64,000 bases of DNA from Stigmatella aurantiaca DW4/3-1 (GTDB taxonomy: Bacteria; Myxococcota; Myxococcia; Myxococcales; Myxococcaceae), in NCBI RefSeq assembly GCF_000165485.1, contig NC_014623.1, positions 3,553,501 to 3,617,500 on the forward strand. The letters are read 5' to 3'. Position 1 is the stretch's first letter. Every line of letters starts with the position of its first letter. The position numbers were made by a program, and so were the translations under genes. Shown here piece by piece: positions 8,164 to 41,050 of the stretch. Under the pieces are notes generated by a model that searched no databases, had not been told where the DNA came from, and was given only the letters and a program-made list of their open reading frames with translations.

Positions 8164-8877
8164 TCAGTAGCGCCCGCCGCCCACCGCGCTCACGACAGCC
8201 GACAGGATGCGGTTCTCCACGCCCCACACGGCCTTGTTCATGCCCTTGACGCCCGCGCCCCGCAGGTAGTCCGTGAAGTCGTGCAGCGCCGTGGAGCGCT
8301 GCATGCCGGCGCCCTCGGCCGCGTACAGCAGCGGGGTGCCCGGCGCGCCCGTCAGCCCCAGGTCTGGACACGCCTCGGAGAGCTTCTTCGGATCAATGCC
8401 CGTGGCCGACGCGAGCATCCCCACCGTGAACTTGTGCACGTCCAGCTCCCGGGCGTTGGGCACCTTCTTGAGCACCTTGGCGCGATCCTCGGGGCTGGTG
8501 GCCAGCTGCTCCAGCTTCACCTGGGAGATGGCGAGCAGTTGCTCGTTGGACACGTGCTTGTTGTCCAGGATCGCCCGGGTGAACAGGCTCTCGGTGGTGT
8601 CGCCCTTGATCTGGATGCCCGCGGCCTCCGAGTTGCGCATGCGGGTGATCATCCCCGCGATGGCCTTGCCCACCGGCGTGTCCGGTCCGCCGCGCCAGGC
8701 GCCGGGCATCGGCTGAGCCGCCGCGGTCTGGGCTACCGGGGCCTCGAAGCTGCTGCGCTGCACCTGGCCCACCGTGTTCGCCGGCTTCACGGCGGTGGCG
8801 GTGGCGGGGCGGGCCTCGGCGCGCGGGGCGCTCGTGGGGGACGGAAACGTCGACGGGCGGCGGCCGATGGGCTCCAT
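8164..8877 (-). CDS. hypothetical protein, lineage-specific
   Basis: About 237 residues from the ATG at 8877 (MEPIGRRPSTFPSP), which has AGGAG well placed upstream; a longer frame to 8937 would overlap the divergent gene. The first 80 residues are Pro/Ala-rich and probably disordered. The rest is helical with repeated Lys/Leu motifs (EQLATSPEDRAKVLKKVPNAREL). There is no signal peptide or membrane helix. I do not recognise it. It ends three bases after the convergent acyl-CoA-dehydrogenase-like gene. Confidence 0.7.
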   Translation of the reverse strand: MEPIGRRPSTFPSPTSAPRAEARPATATAVKPANTVGQVQRSSFEAPVAQTAAAQPMPGAWRGGPDTPVGKAIAGMITRMRNSEAAGIQIKGDTTESLFTRAILDNKHVSNEQLLAISQVKLEQLATSPEDRAKVLKKVPNARELDVHKFTVGMLASATGIDPKKLSEACPDLGLTGAPGTPLLYAAEGAGMQRSTALHDFTDYLRGAGVKGMNKAVWGVENRILSAVVSAVGGGRY

Positions 8878-8930
8878 GAACAACTCCTGGGGGAAGGGGA
8901 GTCCTCCCCCGGAAATCAGGGGAGACACTC

Positions 8931-9737
8931 GTGGCATTATCTGACAGTCTACCTGGAAGTTGCATGCCTGCCTTCCCCTCCGAATTCGCTGATCTGCTGA
9001 CCCCTCGGGGGCTCCGGATTCTCAAAGGACGAGACGCCGAAGCCTGTGGGGCGCTGCTTCAAGTGCCGCCCCGGCGCTTCATCGCGCTCGAGGGCGTTCT
9101 CCAGGTGAAGAAGGCGGTCGCGTGCCGCGCCGCGTTGGAGGCGGCGCTCCAGGACACGCTCGTGGAGATGGAGGATCCCATCCCCCCGGAGAGCATCCTG
9201 GGGATGACCGAGAACTACGCGGAGCTGTTGCCCAAGACGGTCCGGGTGCGCACGGCGATGTTGGAGAGCCGCCGCTCGCGTTCGTGGCGCGCCGCCGAGC
9301 AGGTGGGGCTCACCGCCATGCTCCGCTCGGAGAGCTTCGCCGCCTTCGCCGCCGCGGTGAGTGGGCGTGCGCTGCGGCGCAAGTGGGGCATCCAGGTGCT
9401 GTGCTACGGGCCGGGGGACTACGCGGGCCCCCACAATGATCACCACCCGGAGGACCTCGAGGCCCGGGATGGCTATGTGGACATGCACATCAGCCTGGCC
9501 ACCCCGGGCGTTGCGCACCAGTGGCTCGTCTATGCCCAGGGCGGGCACTTCTCCCAGATGGTCCCCGTGAACACCGTGGGCGGGGTGACCGTGTACCGGC
9601 TGCCCTTCTGGCACTACACCACGCCGCTGAAGGCCCGCCCTGGCCAGGAGCACGCCGCGAGGCGCTGGGTGCTGCTCGGCACGTTCCTCGATGCGCCCCG
9701 GGAGCCCCGCCGCGGGAACGTGGTGGGGCCGCCCTGA
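8931..9737 (+). CDS. 2OG-Fe(II) oxygenase-like protein
   Basis: Up to 268 residues. The second half shows a plausible 2-oxoglutarate/iron pattern: YGPGDYAGPHNDHHPED supplies H-x-D, FWHYTTPL the distal His and ARRWVLLGTF the 2OG-binding Arg. No signal peptide is seen. The GTG at 8931 has an excellent AGGGGAG site; an ATG at 8964 with GGAAG is a shorter alternative (MPAFPSEFADLL). It is divergent from the hypothetical gene at 8877. The family assignment rests on motif spacing only. Confidence 0.6.
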   Translation: MALSDSLPGSCMPAFPSEFADLLTPRGLRILKGRDAEACGALLQVPPRRFIALEGVLQVKKAVACRAALEAALQDTLVEMEDPIPPESILGMTENYAELLPKTVRVRTAMLESRRSRSWRAAEQVGLTAMLRSESFAAFAAAVSGRALRRKWGIQVLCYGPGDYAGPHNDHHPEDLEARDGYVDMHISLATPGVAHQWLVYAQGGHFSQMVPVNTVGGVTVYRLPFWHYTTPLKARPGQEHAARRWVLLGTFLDAPREPRRGNVVGPP

Positions 9738-14873: not shown

Positions 14874-20174
<5,301 letters not shown>

Positions 20175-23952: not shown

Positions 23953-24537
23953 ATGCCGACGGCAGACCCCACTCACAGCGCCCGGATCAAAGGGACGGTG
24001 CTCATCTCCCGGCTCAATATGGTGCGTCAGCACGGGGGACCGGCGCGTTTGGAGGAAGTCCTGCGGCGGTTGCCGCCCGCGGATCAAGCGATCCTGCGGA
24101 AGATGATCCTCCCCATCAACTGGTACCCGCTGGAGCTCAACCTGCGCCTGGACGAGGCCATCGCCGACGTGCTGTCGCCCGATGACCGCACGCGGGCCTT
24201 CGTGGACATGGGCCGCGCCTCCGCGGATGAGAACCTCCGGGGGGCCCAGCACGTCTTCGTCCGCCAGGGAGAGCCTCACTTCCTGTTGAGCCAGGCGCCG
24301 CAGATCTACCGCTTCTATTACGCCGTGGGCTCGCGCACCTACGAGAAGTCGGGCCCCAAGTCCGCCATTCTGCGCACCTTCGGCGCGGAGCGCGTCAACG
24401 ACGCGGACTGCCTCACCATCGTGGGTTGGCACCAGCGGGCGATCGAGCTGTCGGGGGGCCGCTCCGTGAGGGTGCTCCATCCGAAGTGCGTGGCCTGGGG
24501 GGCGTCTCACTGCGAGTACCATTGTCAGTGGGAGTAG
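23953..24537 (+). CDS. unnamed protein upstream of ycaO-tfuA (V4R-like end)
   Basis: 194 residues from ATG 23953 (MPTADPTHSARIKGTVLISRL). It is soluble and alpha/beta, with no signal peptide. The C-terminus (RVLHPKCVAWGASHCEYHCQW) recalls the last strands of V4R/haem-NO-binding-like domains, which often have two Cys there and bind small molecules; this is a weak resemblance. Only 29 bases separate its stop from the TTG of the ycaO gene, so the three genes may form one operon. A longer frame from GTG 23872 has a stronger ribosome site (GGAGGAGGGG) and could be the true start. Confidence 0.6.
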   Translation: MPTADPTHSARIKGTVLISRLNMVRQHGGPARLEEVLRRLPPADQAILRKMILPINWYPLELNLRLDEAIADVLSPDDRTRAFVDMGRASADENLRGAQHVFVRQGEPHFLLSQAPQIYRFYYAVGSRTYEKSGPKSAILRTFGAERVNDADCLTIVGWHQRAIELSGGRSVRVLHPKCVAWGASHCEYHCQWE

Positions 24538-24566
24538 CGGCTTGAGGGGTTTGCGCGGCTAAGGCC

Positions 24567-25769
24567 TTGGCGGCAGCGGATTTCAGGTTAAGGTTGGATG
24601 CCGTGCTGCCTACCAAGCAAGTCGTCGTCTCCCCGGTGTTTCAGGCACGCCTGGCCCAGGCCATGGGCGTTACCCGGGTGGCTCGCATCACAGGGCTGGA
24701 TCGCACCGGCGTGGAGGTGGCTTGCGCCGTGCGGCCGGGCGGGCATGTGCTCCAGGTGTGCAATGGCAAGGGGCTGACCGCCGAGGAAGCCTCGCTGGGG
24801 GCCCTGTTCGAGACCGCCGAGCTGTGGGCCGCCGAGCGTGTGCCCCCAGGCCGGTTGGTCTGGGGCGCCCGGGGGGAGCTGGATGGCCGGATCGGCGCCG
24901 TCTGGGGCGCCGCGGCGCTGGGCTCGGCTGGAGCCTTGGCCGTTCCCCGGCTGTGGTCGGATTCCGTGCGGTGCGCGTGGCAGCAGGCCCAGGAGCTGCA
25001 CTCGGGGCGGACGGTCTGGGTGCCCGCCCAGGGGATCTACTGTCCCCCCTCGGGCGCGGCGGAGCTGGGGCCCGTGAGCGTGACGTGGACGAGCAATGGC
25101 TCCGGGGCCCACCCGGAGGAGCGCAAGGCCCAGCTTCACGCGCTGCTGGAGGCCACCGAGCGGGATCAGCTCGCGCGCGCGATGCCGGGCGGGTGGACGG
25201 AAGAGAGCGTGCGGCGGCGGATGCTGAGGACCCCGGGGCTCGAGCAGAAGGCGCCGCGCACGGCGGCCCTGGCTCAAGTGCTGCGGGAGCGGGGGTTTGG
25301 CGTGTACCTCTTCGATGCCACCCCTTATCTGCGGACACCCGGGACGGTGGGGCTGCCCGTGGCCGCCGCGGTGCTGGTGGACCTGGAGGAGGGGCCGGTG
25401 CCGCTCACGGCGGGGTATGCGTGCGCGCTCGGAAGGGACACCGCCCTGCTGCGCGCGCTGCTGGAAGCCGCCCAGTCCCGCCTCACGGACATTCACGGTG
25501 CGCGGGAGGATGTCTCCGCCTCGGACCGCACGGCCGCGCGCGCCTTCGCGGAAGCGTGCGCCTCGGTGCGTGCCAAGCGTCAGGTGGGGGACATGCCGGA
25601 CTTCTCCCAGGACGCCGGCTCCGCGGCGCGGGGGGTGCGGCGCGTGTTGGAGCAGTTGCGGCGCGCGGGCTTCACCCAGGTGGCCGCCGTCTCGCTCGAT
25701 GCGCCCGTGTCAGGGCTGCACGTCCAGCGGGTGGTGGTCCCGGGCATGCGCATCTCGGAGCTTCTATGA
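24567..25769 (+). CDS. YcaO-domain cyclodehydratase/thioamidase-like enzyme
   Basis: Up to 400 residues. The YcaO ATP-binding segments are present: CNGKGLTAEEASLGALFETAELWAAER, then HALLEATERDQLARA and LLRALLEAAQSRLTDIHGAREDVSASDR, giving the Glu/Arg ladder of this fold. There is no Pro-rich C-terminus of the azoline type; it ends GMRISELL. YcaO enzymes use ATP to activate peptide-backbone amides; those paired with TfuA install thioamides. Start codons are TTG 24567, TTG 24594 or GTG 24603; the choice is uncertain. The stop overlaps the tfuA start (ATGA), so the two are translationally coupled. Confidence 0.88.
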   Translation: MAAADFRLRLDAVLPTKQVVVSPVFQARLAQAMGVTRVARITGLDRTGVEVACAVRPGGHVLQVCNGKGLTAEEASLGALFETAELWAAERVPPGRLVWGARGELDGRIGAVWGAAALGSAGALAVPRLWSDSVRCAWQQAQELHSGRTVWVPAQGIYCPPSGAAELGPVSVTWTSNGSGAHPEERKAQLHALLEATERDQLARAMPGGWTEESVRRRMLRTPGLEQKAPRTAALAQVLRERGFGVYLFDATPYLRTPGTVGLPVAAAVLVDLEEGPVPLTAGYACALGRDTALLRALLEAAQSRLTDIHGAREDVSASDRTAARAFAEACASVRAKRQVGDMPDFSQDAGSAARGVRRVLEQLRRAGFTQVAAVSLDAPVSGLHVQRVVVPGMRISELL

Positions 25770-26938
25770 AACGCCGTCCAGAGGATCTCGTCGTCTTCCT
25801 CGGTCCCTCCCTGTCCGCGAGCGAGGCGCGCCGGTTGGTGCCCTGCCATGTGCTGCCCCCGGCCCGCCAGGGGGATGTGTGGCGGGCGCTCTCGTTGCGC
25901 CCCCGGGTGATCGCCCTGGTGGATGGGGTGTTCGAGGCCCAGCCTTCCGTGTGGCACCACGAGCTGCTGGCCGCGCTGGAGGCCGGGGTGGCCGTCTTCG
26001 GCGGCGCGAGCATGGGGGCGCTCCGGGCGGCGGAGCTGGCCTCGCACGGCATGGTCGGGGTGGGGCGCATCTTCGAGTGGTACCGGGATGGGGTGGTGGC
26101 GGATGACGCCGAGGTGGCGCTGCTGCACGCCACCGCGGAGCACGGCTACCGGCCGCTGACGGTGCCGCTCGTCAACGTGCGGCACGTGGCCGCCAAGGCC
26201 CGCGAGGCGAAGGTGCTCAGCATGTCGCAGGCGCGGGCGCTCGTGAAGGCCGCCGCGGGCATCTTCTACCAGGAGCGCACCTGGAAGCGGGTGCTCGCGT
26301 CCGTGCGGCCCGCCTGGCCTGCGGCCACGCGGGGCGACTGGGAGGGGTGGTGGTCCCGGGGGGTGGAAGATCTCAAGCAGCTGGATGCCCTGGCCTGCCT
26401 CCGGGCCGCGGCGGCCTTCAGTGGCATGCCGGTGCGGTCCGTCGGGCCGCGGCACCCGGTGCGGCTTTCGCCCTCCTCGCTGGTGCGGCGCCGGAGGCTG
26501 GTGGACGGCGTGTCGCTCGTGAAGGGGCAAGCCATCCCCGCCGCCCAGGTGCTGGCGGTGCTCCAGCGCGCGCCGGACAGCACGGAGCTGGCGGAGGCGG
26601 GGCTGCGCCGGGCCCTGCTGGCCGGTTGGGCCCGTTCGCTGGGGCTGAGCCCGCACGAGGACGAGGTCCGGGCCGCGGAGGCGGAGTGGTGGCGCCGCCA
26701 CCCGGTGAAGCCCGCGGCCCGGGCCGCGCTCCTGGCGGAGTGCGGCCTGGAGGGCCAGGGGCTGCGGCGGCTGTGCGAGGAGCGGGCGCTGGAGCGGCTG
26801 GTGCTCACCTATGCCATGCGCCTGCTGCCGGATGGCCCCTCATGGCAGGAGGCGCTGGCCTCCGAGGCGCGGCTTCAAGGGCGCTGGAGCCAGGCTGCCC
26901 GCGAGGTGGGACGGACGGGCCGTCGCCGCAGCCGGTGA
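25766..26938 (+). CDS. TfuA-like protein, YcaO partner
   Basis: 390 residues. The N-terminal 200 residues are a clear TfuA core: VVFLGPSLSASEARRL, PPARQGDVWRAL, IALVDGVFEAQPSVWHHE, VFGGASMGALRAAEL, GVGRIFEWYRDG. The C-terminal half is Arg/Ala-rich and helical (ARAALLAECGLEGQGLRRLCEERALERL), longer than the minimal family. TfuA proteins partner with YcaO in thioamide formation, in thioviridamide-type peptides and on methyl-CoM reductase, and are thought to deliver sulfur. It is coupled to the ycaO gene and is convergent with the outer-membrane protein gene 21 bases away. Confidence 0.9.
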   Translation: MKRRPEDLVVFLGPSLSASEARRLVPCHVLPPARQGDVWRALSLRPRVIALVDGVFEAQPSVWHHELLAALEAGVAVFGGASMGALRAAELASHGMVGVGRIFEWYRDGVVADDAEVALLHATAEHGYRPLTVPLVNVRHVAAKAREAKVLSMSQARALVKAAAGIFYQERTWKRVLASVRPAWPAATRGDWEGWWSRGVEDLKQLDALACLRAAAAFSGMPVRSVGPRHPVRLSPSSLVRRRRLVDGVSLVKGQAIPAAQVLAVLQRAPDSTELAEAGLRRALLAGWARSLGLSPHEDEVRAAEAEWWRRHPVKPAARAALLAECGLEGQGLRRLCEERALERLVLTYAMRLLPDGPSWQEALASEARLQGRWSQAAREVGRTGRRRSR

Positions 26939-29632: not shown

Positions 29633-30397
29633 ATGAGCATTGAACTTTCTTCCGAGGCCCCGCGCTGCCACCGGGCAGATGCGCGAGAGCCGGGTGGTTA
29701 CCTGTCCGCGCTCGGAGATTCGCGCGCCCACCTGTTGCTGACGGACCCTCCGTATTGCCTGCTCACCCGCAGGCGCAAGGGCGGGGATGAGCGGGACCCC
29801 CGCGCCCACAAGAAGATCGATCGCAACCCCATCGTCCGCTTCGAGACCGTGAAGGATTACCGTGTCTTCACCGAAGCTTGGATGACCCGGGCCGTCTCGT
29901 GGCTCACCCCGGAGGCGCGGCTGGTCATCTGGACGAACCTCCTGGGCAAGGAGCCCATCACCACCGTGGCCCGGCAGCTCGGCTACACGCACCTGCTGGG
30001 CGAGTACGTGTGGGGCAAGCGCACCACGGACAAGAACGCCAACGAGCAGCTCCTGCGCGTCTACGAGGTGGCGCTCGTCTTCTCCCGCACGCCGCTGCCC
30101 CCGCTGGGCCCGGGGGAGGCGCCCACCGTCTGGGCGGTGGTGGGAGGCTACGACGATGATGCCGAGGCCCAGCAGTGGGGCAACCATCCCCACCACAAGC
30201 CCTTCTCGGTGCTCGAGCCGCTGGTGAGGACCTACAGCCGCCCCGGGGAGACGATCCTCGACCCATTCGCGGGAAGCGGCTCCACCCCCGCGGCGGCGCT
30301 GCGGCTGGAGCGCCGGCCCGCGTGCATGGAGATCGAACCCGAGTGGGCCGAGCGCGTCACGCACCGCCTGCGCGGCGTGGCGGGCCACTCCCGGTAG
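29633..30397 (+). CDS. solitary DNA N4/N6 methyltransferase
   Basis: 254 residues. Motif IV is TDPPY near the N-terminus and motif I is LDPFAGSGSTPAAALRL near the C-terminus, so the order is that of beta-class amino-methyltransferases. After motif I, CMEIEPEWAERV supplies the Glu that contacts AdoMet. No restriction endonuclease or specificity gene is next to it, so it looks like an orphan (regulatory or protective) enzyme. The ATG at 29633 follows GCGAGGCGG. Its 3' end overlaps the convergent thiE by 41 bases. Confidence 0.88.
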   Translation: MSIELSSEAPRCHRADAREPGGYLSALGDSRAHLLLTDPPYCLLTRRRKGGDERDPRAHKKIDRNPIVRFETVKDYRVFTEAWMTRAVSWLTPEARLVIWTNLLGKEPITTVARQLGYTHLLGEYVWGKRTTDKNANEQLLRVYEVALVFSRTPLPPLGPGEAPTVWAVVGGYDDDAEAQQWGNHPHHKPFSVLEPLVRTYSRPGETILDPFAGSGSTPAAALRLERRPACMEIEPEWAERVTHRLRGVAGHSR

Positions 30398-31022
30398 GTC
30401 CCCGTTCCGCCAGGGCCTGGCGCACCTCGCGCAGCAATTCCCGGGCGGCGAAGGCGGGGTCGGGCGCATCGAGGATGGCCGAGATGACCGAGACGCCACA
30501 CGCCCCCGCGCGGATGAGGGGCGCCGCGAGGCCCGGCCCGATGCCGCCAATGCCCACCACGGGGCCCGGGAAGGCACGGCAGATCTGCTCGACCGCCGCC
30601 GTGCCGACGGGGGTTCCCGCGTCCACCTTGCTGGCGGTGGCGTAGATGGGCCCCACCCCCACGTAGTCCGCGCCGTCGGCGATCGAGAGTTCCTCCAGGG
30701 TCGCGCAGCTGGCGCCGATGAGGGCCTGGGGGCCCCACAGGCGGCGCGCCTCGGCGGGGGGCAGATCGCTCTGGCCCAGGTGCACGCCATCCGCCCCGGC
30801 GGCCATGGCCAGATCGAGCCGGTCATTGACGAAGAAGAGCGCCCCCGCCCGCCGGCACTGCGCGCGGAGCCGTCTTGCCTGGACCAGCTGCTCGGCCATG
30901 GGCAGGGCTTTCTCCCGGAACTGGAGGGCGCCCACCCCCGCCCCGAGCAGGGCCTCCACCACCGTCTCGGGGGTGCTGCCGCTGACGATGACGTAGACGG
31001 AAAGCCGTTCCCTCACATCCAT
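30357..31022 (-). CDS. thiE: thiamine phosphate synthase
   Basis: 221 residues. ThiE signatures are present: LQFREKAL, FVNDRLDLAMAAGADGVHLGQSDLP, IGASCATLEEL, DYVGVGPIYATASK and VVGIGGIGPGLAAPLIRAGACGVSVISAI. It joins hydroxymethylpyrimidine diphosphate and thiazole phosphate to give thiamine phosphate. Two starts are plausible: ATG 31022 with AGGAG nine bases upstream (used here), or ATG 31043, which overlaps the thiM stop as ATGA. Either way it is coupled to thiM. Confidence 0.93.
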   Translation of the reverse strand: MDVRERLSVYVIVSGSTPETVVEALLGAGVGALQFREKALPMAEQLVQARRLRAQCRRAGALFFVNDRLDLAMAAGADGVHLGQSDLPPAEARRLWGPQALIGASCATLEELSIADGADYVGVGPIYATASKVDAGTPVGTAAVEQICRAFPGPVVGIGGIGPGLAAPLIRAGACGVSVISAILDAPDPAFAARELLREVRQALAERGPTGSGPPRRAGGA

Positions 31023-31039
31023 GGCCCCACGCTCCTGGC

Positions 31040-31843
31040 TCATCCGCCCACGCGCAACTTGTCTCGAAGGTGGGTGATGTCCACCTGGTGGAGCGCATCC
31101 AGGAAGTGCATGGGCAGGGTTCCAGGACCTTGGGCCTGCTGGGCCCCCATCTCGCCCGCGATGCCCATGAGCGCCATGGCGTGGGCGGCGGCGTCCAGGG
31201 ACGAGGGATTGCAGGCGGCGAAGGCTCCGGTGAGCGCCGAGGCCGCGCACCCCATGGCGGTCACCCGCGTCATCAGCGGCGTGCCATTGCTCACGCGCAG
31301 CTCCCGGTCTCCCTGGAGGATCAAATCGGTGGCCCCGCTGACGGAGATGACGCACCCGTACCGCTTGGACAGGGACCGGGCGGTCTCGTAAGCCTGCGCG
31401 GAGGTGGCCAGGCTGTCGACGCCCCGGGTCTTCTGCTCGTCGGAGCCCAGGGCGATGATCTCCGAGGCATTCCCGCGGATGATGCGGGGCGGGAAGGCCG
31501 CGATGAGCTCGCGCGCTGTCTGGGTTCGCAGCCGCGAGGCGCCCGCGCCCACCGGGTCGAGGACAATGGGCACATGGCGCCGGGACGCCTCTTCCATCGC
31601 CTCGCGCATGCTCTGGATCCAGACCGGGCTGAGCGTCCCCAGGTTGATGACCAACGCCTGGGAGATCGCGACAATCTCCCGGACCTCCTCGGCGGTATGC
31701 GCCATGACGGGGGAGGCGCCGAGCGCCAGCAGCGCATTGGCCGTGAACTCCATCGCCACGTAGTTGGTGATGTTGTGCACCAGGGGGCCCTGCTGGCGGA
31801 TGGCTTGGACATCCTTCCAGATGGCATCGGCGGTCAGGCTCAT
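31040..31843 (-). CDS. thiM: hydroxyethylthiazole kinase
   Basis: 267 residues from ATG 31843 with GGAGG upstream; a longer open frame to 31951 overlaps the preceding gene and is not needed. Typical ThiM motifs: PLVHNITNYVAMEFTANALLALGASPVMAH, VLDPVGAGASRLRT, IIRGNASEIIAL and the C-terminal TAMGCAASALTGAF, including the catalytic Cys region. It phosphorylates the salvaged thiazole alcohol. Directly upstream of thiE. No TPP riboswitch is visible in the 38 bases before it. Confidence 0.93.
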   Translation of the reverse strand: MSLTADAIWKDVQAIRQQGPLVHNITNYVAMEFTANALLALGASPVMAHTAEEVREIVAISQALVINLGTLSPVWIQSMREAMEEASRRHVPIVLDPVGAGASRLRTQTARELIAAFPPRIIRGNASEIIALGSDEQKTRGVDSLATSAQAYETARSLSKRYGCVISVSGATDLILQGDRELRVSNGTPLMTRVTAMGCAASALTGAFAACNPSSLDAAAHAMALMGIAGEMGAQQAQGPGTLPMHFLDALHQVDITHLRDKLRVGG

Positions 31844-38963: not shown

Positions 38964-39050
38964 CTCAGGCGCTTTCACGCCTCGCAGAACCGGATCCACG
39001 CACTGCCTCCAGGTGGTTCCCCTGTGCGCTGCGTGCTAAAATCCTCAGGG

Positions 39051-39614
39051 ATGCTCCGGACACACCTCTTCGGGTGGTTCCTGGTGCTGTGCGTGGTGGT
39101 CCCGCAGTGGGCCCGCGGGTCAGTGCCAGCCATCACTGCGTCACAGGTGCAAGGCATTACGGACTCAGCACGGGCGAAGGTGCTTGCTCATTTGGCACGT
39201 GGGGAATTGGCGCAAGCCGTTCAAGCTTATGAGGTGGCCACGGGGCTCAAGGCACCCTTGTGGCTCGCTGGGTTCAAAGCCACCTTTGACGCGAGCAACC
39301 AGGTGCCAGGCACTTGCCAAAGTGTGGCGCGAAGCATCCACGCCGCTTTCACGCAGCTCGGCGGTAAGCCAGAGTATGTCAGGCTGACGACCCTGATGGA
39401 TGGGACGGGAAGGAGGAGGGCCGCGTTCATGGTCTTCAAGATGGCGGACGGACGGGACTTGCGGATGTCGGAGCGAGGATTCCACGCTGTGATCCGGATG
39501 AAAGACCGCATTTATGATGCGTTCACAGGTGCTGGAGGGCTCCCTTACCAAGAGTACATGAGTCGCCTCGGCGCAATGACCCCCATCATGGATGAAGTCG
39601 TGAGCGCACCATGA
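39051..39614 (+). CDS. exported papain-fold-like protein A, cassette 2
   Basis: 187 residues. Signal peptide MLRTHLFGWFLVLCVVVPQWARG; LVLC does not fit a lipobox well, so ordinary Sec export is more likely. A helical stretch (SARAKVLAHLARGELAQAVQAYEVATGLKAP) precedes a C-terminal domain with PGTCQSVARSIHAAF (Cys), ERGFHAVIRM (His) and RIYDAFTGAGG (Asp), the order and spacing of papain-like cysteine-enzyme toxins. Start ATG 39051; the frame opens at 39024. Stop overlaps B2. Function as toxin is inferred. Confidence 0.75.
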   Translation: MLRTHLFGWFLVLCVVVPQWARGSVPAITASQVQGITDSARAKVLAHLARGELAQAVQAYEVATGLKAPLWLAGFKATFDASNQVPGTCQSVARSIHAAFTQLGGKPEYVRLTTLMDGTGRRRAAFMVFKMADGRDLRMSERGFHAVIRMKDRIYDAFTGAGGLPYQEYMSRLGAMTPIMDEVVSAP

Positions 39615-40397: not shown

Positions 40398-40492
40398 AGA
40401 GTGGGGCTCGCCCGGGCATGCAATCTCCCGGTTTTGACGCGACTCGGCACGTCCTTGGAGCTCTGCGCGCTTCGGTACTAGCGTCCGCAGGC

Positions 40493-41050
40493 ATGCTCCG
40501 GCCGTACATTTTGGGATGGTTCCTGGTGCTATGCATGGTGGTCCCGCAGTCGGCCCATGGATCGCCGCCAAGCATCATTGCGTCGCAGGTACAAGGCATC
40601 ACGGACTCGGCGCGAGCGCAGGTGCTCGCGCACTTGGCGCGGGGAGAACTGGCGAAGGCTGTCCAGGCCTACGAGGTCGCCACAGGGCTCAAAGCGCCGC
40701 TGTGGCTCACTGGCTTCAAGGCCGCGTTCGACGCGAGTAAACAGGTGCCAGGCGCGTGCCAGGGTGTAGCGAGGAGCATCCACGCCGTGTTCAACCGGTT
40801 GGGTGGCAAGCCAGAGTACATCGAACTCACGACTCGGGTCGCAAACGAACGGGTGGATTTACACATCGTTTTTCAACTGGCGAATGGGAAAGACGCGCGA
40901 GTCGCGGATACAGGGCTCCACGTCCTGGTCCGAATGAACGGCCGTGCGTACGACGCCTATACTGGCGCTTCGGGGCTTCCCTGGGCCGAATACATGAGCC
41001 GGCTCGGAGCGCAGGTGCCCATCATCGAGAAGGTCGTGGAGTCACCATGA
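40493..41050 (+). CDS. exported papain-fold-like protein A, cassette 3
   Basis: 185 residues from ATG 40493. Signal peptide MLRPYILGWFLVLCMVVPQSAHG. The catalytic-type pattern is intact: PGACQGVARSIHAVF (Cys), TGLHVLVRMNGRAYDAYTG (His and Asp), then LPWAEYMSRLG. N-terminal half nearly identical to A2 (ITDSARAQVLAHLARGELAKAVQAYEVATGLKAPLWL), while the domain around the active site diverges. Stop overlaps B3. Papain-fold assignment is by motif order; the target is unknown. Confidence 0.75.
   Translation: MLRPYILGWFLVLCMVVPQSAHGSPPSIIASQVQGITDSARAQVLAHLARGELAKAVQAYEVATGLKAPLWLTGFKAAFDASKQVPGACQGVARSIHAVFNRLGGKPEYIELTTRVANERVDLHIVFQLANGKDARVADTGLHVLVRMNGRAYDAYTGASGLPWAEYMSRLGAQVPIIEKVVESP

Follow-up and report, generated by a model that had tools for sequence, protein, structure and literature searches.

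A ycaO-tfuA gene pair in Stigmatella aurantiaca DW4/3-1 as a probable two-gene thioamide-forming system separate from its upstream neighbor

Layout of the ycaO-tfuA locus

We analyzed a stretch of 64,000 nucleotides from the 10,260,756-base genome of Stigmatella aurantiaca DW4/3-1 (positions 3553501-3617500; hereafter the window), in which a ycaO gene and a tfuA gene lie downstream of a gene of the TIGR02265/DUF2378 family, here called the upstream gene (Table 1). The YcaO domain (Pfam PF02624, E 6.9e-53) and the TfuA domain (PF07812, E 3.5e-44) are encoded by adjacent genes, the arrangement that marks membership of the thioamide-forming pairs, and the two reading frames overlap as ATGA, as the original prediction had stated, with the stop codon of ycaO and the start codon of tfuA contained in positions 25766-25769. 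Free sequence around the pair amounts to 65 bases on the 5' side and 21 bases on the 3' side, where a convergent gene of the Omp85 outer-membrane family begins; an amidase gene lies ~2 kb away from the upstream gene. The original prediction had joined all three genes into one possible modification system. We propose, at somewhat better than even confidence, that ycaO and tfuA are instead a two-gene thioamide pair with an unlinked substrate, and that the upstream gene encodes a separate sensor.

Table 1. Features of the ycaO-tfuA locus, in positions of the window
Feature	Position	Strand	Description
Upstream gene	23953..24537	+	Product of 194 aa in the TIGR02265/DUF2378 family; predicted H-NOX/V4R fold; probably outside the system of the pair
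Possible -35 hexamer TTGGCG	24567..24572	+	16 nt 5' of TAAGGT; tentative
TAAGGT	24589..24594	+	Conserved, 8 nt 5' of GTG; -10-like element and/or Shine-Dalgarno sequence (TAAGG)
ycaO	24603..25769	+	GTG start, 388 aa; predicted ATP-dependent activation of a backbone amide
tfuA	25766..26938	+	390 aa; hydrolase-like, predicted to deliver sulfide; Ser82 and Lys204 unchanged in 23/23
TfuA C-terminal helical extension, residues 230-390	26453..26938	+	Weakly SurA/PrsA-like; candidate substrate-binding domain

Identity and predicted chemistry of the pair

The closest sequence to the window YcaO in the Protein Data Bank (PDB), and its sole match there at E <=0.001, is MJ1094 (6pe3; E 2.3e-14). The window TfuA matches Methanosarcina TfuA (6xp8) in sequence with E 3.2e-38, and residues 6-222 of its predicted model superpose on that structure with a Z of 29.2 and 1.8 Å over 215 residues. 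YcaO residues E70, E73, E183, E186, R187, E288, Q291 and R293, which we take to be the ATP and Mg ligands, are invariant in 22 aligned proteins, and S82, K204 and D207 of TfuA are invariant in 23, among which is the paralogue from a second pair in the same genome. ThiS-family sequences occur at 3 places in the genome. TfuA has been reported (PMC13185837) to act on ThiS-COSH through a Ser-Lys pair, and by analogy with this general statement Ser82 and Lys204 would be the catalytic pair. Because of the MJ1094 match, the 6xp8 superposition, the invariance of Ser82 and Lys204 and the ThiS-family places, we regard it as very likely from sequence that the products of ycaO and tfuA form thioamides, and the original assignment of this chemistry to the pair is upheld by its closest relatives and conserved residues.

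Under the mechanism that we propose, ycaO and tfuA would be a two-gene transcription unit for the thioamide-forming pair, in which TfuA would release sulfide from a thiocarboxylated ThiS-like carrier through Ser-Lys chemistry, while YcaO would activate a backbone amide with ATP so that its oxygen could be replaced by the sulfide. Genes for the thiamine salvage enzymes ThiE and ThiM lie ~3.4 kb 3' of tfuA, at 30357-31843. The genome holds YcaO at 5 places and TfuA at 3: besides the window pair there are the second ycaO-tfuA pair (L089:8256-10726), three further ycaO genes, and a tfuA with no called ycaO beside it (L093:8592-9287).

The best NCBIfam matches of both window proteins are the models of the methanogen YcaO-TfuA pair that modifies a glycine of McrA (TIGR03266 and NF033432; PMC5589413). 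In both pairs the stop and start codons overlap, and they have in common conserved residues and, as proposed for the window pair, a protein substrate. The window scores nevertheless fall short of the equivalog cut-off in both cases (120.9 of 365 bits and 193.3 of 235.2 bits), which rules out an McrA-type equivalog, and the window TfuA differs by an extra C-terminal helical region of ~160 residues. To our knowledge, McrA is not to be expected as a substrate in a myxobacterium. With the thioviridamide and thiovarsolin clusters, which represent the thioamitides and other thioamidated ribosomally synthesized and post-translationally modified peptides (RiPPs), the window pair has the YcaO plus TfuA chemistry in common, but it stands without the adjacent precursor and tailoring genes of those clusters.

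The C-terminal region of TfuA is helical in the model, with a predicted local distance difference test score (pLDDT) mostly >80. A comparison of the extension with SurA/PrsA by hhalign, with only 3 SurA/PrsA rows, gave a probability of 13.5% and E 0.0021; Foldseek matched the same families with a probability of 0.85 at a weak E of 0.23; and superposition on PrsA1 in VIA-align returned a Z of 6.8 over 85 residues at 6.0 Å, a level that the program's own note describes as common. SurA was not among the Pfam families matched by the 23 TfuA proteins at E <=1. We therefore treat a SurA-like domain on TfuA as a weak, model-derived lead only; the helical domain may help to bind the substrate.

Start codon of ycaO and a promoter-like element

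The upstream gene and ycaO had originally been placed 29 bases apart, a spacing that relied on a TTG start codon at 24567. This start is probably wrong, and the GTG at 24603 is better supported. In an alignment of 22 related loci, TA[AG]GGT lies exactly 8 nt 5' of the GTG in 17 and 10 nt 5' of it in G042; the element is absent before the GTG in the other 4 (G044, G045, G075 and G076). These 18 occurrences compare with 0.17 expected from shuffled sequences, and the element is present irrespective of whether the upstream gene adjoins ycaO. The TTG at 24567 itself falls inside the possible -35 hexamer TTGGCG.

Together with TTGGCG, the window's TAAGGT suggests the -10 element of a near-leaderless promoter, so that ycaO would have a promoter of its own; alternatively, TAAGG can be read as a Shine-Dalgarno sequence. 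Since both readings support a start at GTG 24603, the spacing of 65 bases holds under either. We favor the promoter because the T at the sixth position of TAAGGT is kept and because Anaeromyxobacter-type loci carry TATAAA or TATAAG at a nearly equivalent position (placed by eye), some of them without the Shine-Dalgarno-like core. The use of such a hexamer as a -10 element in these genomes is further supported by a similar one that stands 16 nt after GTGACA, ahead of the downstream kinase gene, in 13 loci, including 3 that lack the ycaO-tfuA pair, since no start codon follows directly behind it.

Neighborhood of the pair and its substrate

A search for a precursor peptide gene, which covered open reading frames (ORFs) of 18-130 aa within 1.5 kb on each side of the pair, found none, and in the window there is no same-strand room for one. 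Across the annotated loci, 965 small ORFs near the pair were compared and at most the 25 largest families considered; on our own reading, most of the families that are shared run opposite to other genes or overlap them. Two exceptions both follow tfuA. One is a SUI1-family gene whose start lies 4 bases before the end of tfuA in G013, G015 and G022 (Pfam SUI1, E 3.5e-12 in one of them), with a SUI1 ORF after tfuA in a fourth genome of the Anaeromyxobacter group, G014; in the locus L075 this translation factor gene occupies 8847-9233 and overlaps the 3' end of tfuA. The other is a TTG-start ORF on the same strand between tfuA and the kinase gene in 6 Myxococcus-group genomes. We rejected it as a precursor: it belongs to a conserved kinase leader found in 13 loci, and because that block is also present in 3 loci without the pair, the ORF goes with the kinase rather than with the pair.

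The leader block before the Ser/Thr kinase gene is an observation in its own right. It consists of GTGACA, 16 nt, TA[AG][AG]GT, an inverted repeat CAACC..GGAGGTTG (CAACC/GGTTG) and CCCTGGGTGGT, and it was located at L057:10229-10306 and L086:9947-10024, both on the + strand, and in 11 further loci. No Rfam match was found in the 3 loci searched; the block is possibly a structured leader RNA.

The gene downstream of the pair differs between families, being a kinase, an exo/endonuclease, TrkA or SUI1. Because no precursor peptide gene was found near the pair and its neighbors vary in this way, our best reading is that the substrate is unlinked, perhaps a house-keeping protein, and the original expectation that it would be encoded away from the pair is supported. 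The companion statement that no precursor, protease or exporter stands beside the pair holds in the window for precursor and exporter, but Anaeromyxobacter-type loci do carry an M20 peptidase gene. These observations fit an enzyme pair that is passed down with the lineage and has a target encoded at another site, for which a Myxococcales-conserved protein would be a more likely candidate than a clustered RiPP precursor.

Distribution of the pair and of the upstream gene

Our survey covered 145 genomes of the order, with a threshold of E <=1e-30 for orthologues of the upstream gene. A tfuA orthologue was counted in 102 genomes and an upstream orthologue in 62; 55 genomes have both and 36 neither, so that 47 of the 102 genomes with the pair have no upstream gene and 7 of the 62 with the upstream gene have no pair. 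Where both are present, the two genes lie on the same strand and contig within 13 kb in 43 of the 55 genomes, on different contigs in 9 and at a distance of 1.7-2.3 Mb in 3. This near linkage is confined to the family of the window: the 10 genomes outside it comprise the 3 with megabase distances and 7 with the genes on different contigs. Among these 7, the stretches around one or both genes were read in G003, G010, G017, G035 and G138, with G016 and G021 left out, and the other gene was absent from all of the stretches read. The two cases of different contigs inside the family, G092 and G102, may be assembly breaks.

Within the family, 19 annotated loci contain both genes. In 14 of them an opposite-strand gene for an AhpC-TSA peroxiredoxin lies between the upstream gene and ycaO, accompanied by further intervening genes in 3; no gene intervenes in the other 5 (G000, G075, G076, G077 and G079). 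The genes are also separable, since in G096 and G105 the upstream gene is >12 kb from the pair and ycaO still adjoins tfuA. Independent presence is seen in both directions: 16 Corallococcus-group genomes have the pair with the upstream orthologue missing, and the upstream gene occurs without a pair orthologue in the Myxococcus-group genomes G101, G110, G112 and G113. In the 3 of these 4 pair-less loci that were read, the flanking genes are in place and ycaO-tfuA is missing. Gene order at the locus is generally kept, with an extracytoplasmic function (ECF) sigma factor gene in 24 of 25 family loci, an anti-sigma gene in 24, a Spy-like gene in 25, and the upstream gene and ycaO in 22 each. Among 80 named loci, tfuA was called in 47 and an upstream-like gene in 5, all from Hyalangium, Pyxidicoccus, Citreicoccus or Archangium.

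What we find is thus not a conserved three-gene operon, with the genes adjacent in 5 of 19 family loci and near each other in 0 of 10 genomes of other families. Because of the independent presence of the genes, their separation in other families, the intervening peroxiredoxin and the generally kept gene order, the link between the upstream gene and ycaO appears to reflect synteny, with the genes gained and lost separately. The upstream gene of the window would then stand beside ycaO because gene order is conserved and the peroxiredoxin gene is absent from the Stigmatella lineage.

A TfuA tree of 46 rows, in which many deep branches are unresolved, groups the proteins by family with 6 changes against a minimum of 5, a value as low as which was reached in 0 of 200 shuffles. 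Outside the order, 2 of 50 further genomes of the phylum match TfuA at E <=1e-40, with 38 and 42% identity. The tree is compatible with mostly vertical descent of TfuA.

The upstream protein

The upstream gene is present as originally drawn, but it need not go unnamed: its product scores 36.5 bits against NCBIfam TIGR02265 (cut-off 25), a family with 13 places above cut-off in this genome. Against Pfam DUF2378 (PF09536) it reaches 16.5 bits and so stays below the cut-off of 22.2, as a divergent member of this myxobacterial paralogue family would; all 15 aligned orthologues match PF09536 at E <=1 (best 1.6e-8). The Cys-containing end is confirmed: C179 and C187 are present in all 15 orthologues, that of the window included. 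A V4R likeness is suggested by the 10 of 15 orthologues that match PF02830 (E <=1, best 2.4e-4), but the window protein itself was unmatched. No mention of TIGR02265 was found in the literature searched, which consisted of open-licence papers. The quinolone HHQ is reported to have induced a DUF2378 protein in two myxobacteria (PMC9257966); we do not equate that protein with the window orthologue.

The AlphaFold2 model of the upstream protein (pLDDT 93.7) finds its best solved structures among H-NOX domains, which sense NO or O2 through heme (Foldseek E 1.1e-8), followed by TRAPP-C3 proteins, and its residues 12-194 superpose on 3tfd_B with a Z of 18.4 and 2.3 Å over 173 residues, a predicted fold in common with H-NOX sensors and with V4R/TRAPP-C3 fold proteins. 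A profile of the 15 orthologues likewise aligned with one of 9 myxobacterial HNOB-type proteins at an hhalign probability of 87% and E 3.7e-6. In contrast to H-NOX proteins, the 15 orthologues have no invariant histidine, so that a conserved proximal heme histidine is lacking, and the YxSxR motif is absent from them and present in all 9 HNOB-type proteins. YxSxR has a known role in H-NOX proteins. At the place expected for the proximal histidine, in an ungapped comparison by eye, the upstream protein has the invariant Tyr119. Since it has neither an invariant histidine nor YxSxR, we describe the upstream protein as having a predicted H-NOX fold without the usual heme-binding residues; we reject a canonical heme sensor because no histidine is invariant. 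We also reject a sulfur carrier because of the predicted H-NOX fold, and the Cys tail is of the V4R type, common to 7 of the 9 aligned HNOB-type proteins. The upstream protein is probably, to judge from its model, a sensor of a small-molecule ligand, and it would act as a separate H-NOX/V4R-fold member of the DUF2378 paralogues; the role of partner to YcaO-TfuA that had been proposed for it is not upheld.

The two-cysteine V4R-type tail ends the HNOB-type proteins of L192, L193, L194, L198, L199, L201 and L202. At the sequence level it connects the H-NOX family with the V4R/DUF2378 families.

Other features of the window

Between 36500 and 43300 the window has a lower-GC stretch of tandem units of ~1.4 kb, in which secreted ORFs (39024-39614 and 40418-41050) alternate with ORFs of 246 aa. 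Two ORFs tested from this stretch had no Pfam match, and the whole looks like a polymorphic toxin/immunity-like array. At 14874-20174 the window encodes a 1766-aa protein of two tandem UvrA-type halves, with two UvrA interaction stretches.

Discussion

Several observations weigh against a two-gene system with its own promoter and a distant substrate. In 13 of the 43 linked genomes only a short distance separates the upstream gene from ycaO (<1350 bases from tfuA in 10 and 1366-1374 in 3), and because of this closeness there may be read-through from the upstream gene, or there may be a lineage-specific partnership in Stigmatella. The Shine-Dalgarno reading of TAAGG speaks against a separate promoter, as does a strict consensus promoter scan, which returned no site, TTGGCG/TAAGGT included. 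The M20 peptidase gene of Anaeromyxobacter-type loci is divergent and adjoins ycaO, and the precursor search had the bounded reach given above. Finally, a tfuA orthologue was not counted in 43 of the 145 genomes; many of these are incomplete, but G101, G110, G112 and G113 are listed as 100% complete, so that the pair is dispensable.

The rival explanations differ in what they make of this distribution. A three-gene system, with the upstream H-NOX/V4R-fold protein as carrier, sensor or sulfur supplier, draws on the same-strand linkage at up to 13 kb that 43 of the 55 genomes show, on the five loci with no intervening gene and on the invariant Cys pair, and the genes cannot be called never linked; but the neighboring sigma, anti-sigma and Spy-like genes keep their order there too, 7 genomes have only the upstream gene and 47 only tfuA, the genes lie apart wherever genomes of other families were read, the divergent peroxiredoxin intervenes in 14 of 19 annotated loci, and upstream-like genes are far rarer than tfuA among the named loci. 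We consider such a system highly improbable. A secreted thioamidated RiPP with a precursor encoded at a distance is unlikely, though it has more to recommend it: where the product of a bacterial YcaO-TfuA pair is known, it is reported to be a RiPP (PMC8120280 and PMC6511847), the genome carries a second pair and further ycaO genes, and the patchy absence of the pair fits a secondary product. The main text of PMC8120280 contains no mention of myxo, Stigmatella or Myxococcus. Against a distant RiPP, a single orthologous pair is spread over 102 of 145 genomes and its neighbors change, and no precursor-like gene was seen to track the pair across families.

A translation protein as the substrate would be analogous to uL16, which is thioamidated by Escherichia coli YcaO (PMC13063428), and is hinted at by the SUI1 gene, which in 3 loci overlaps the end of tfuA and in a fourth follows it as an ORF. 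SUI1 is, however, limited to the Anaeromyxobacter family and does not directly follow tfuA in G017, G018, G030 and G035 of that same family; we regard this substrate as quite improbable. Beyond the two-gene pair with an unlinked substrate, which we prefer, we offer as a tentative and rather doubtful extension that a vertically inherited Myxococcales YcaO-TfuA with a SurA-like TfuA domain might thioamidate an unlinked conserved protein, possibly a translational one, and so be a bacterial, TfuA-using counterpart of McrA thioamidation.

TfuA-dependent protein thioamidation is known from archaea, in McrA, and bacterial YcaO-TfuA pairs are usually interpreted as enzymes of RiPP synthesis. An orthologous pair that recurs in 102 of 145 genomes without a neighboring precursor would therefore be a good place to seek a thioamidated protein in bacteria, and Stigmatella and Myxococcus are cultivable and genetically tractable. 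For the upstream gene, a DUF2378-type protein with a predicted H-NOX fold but no conserved heme histidine would give a large myxobacterial family without assigned function a testable role in sensing.

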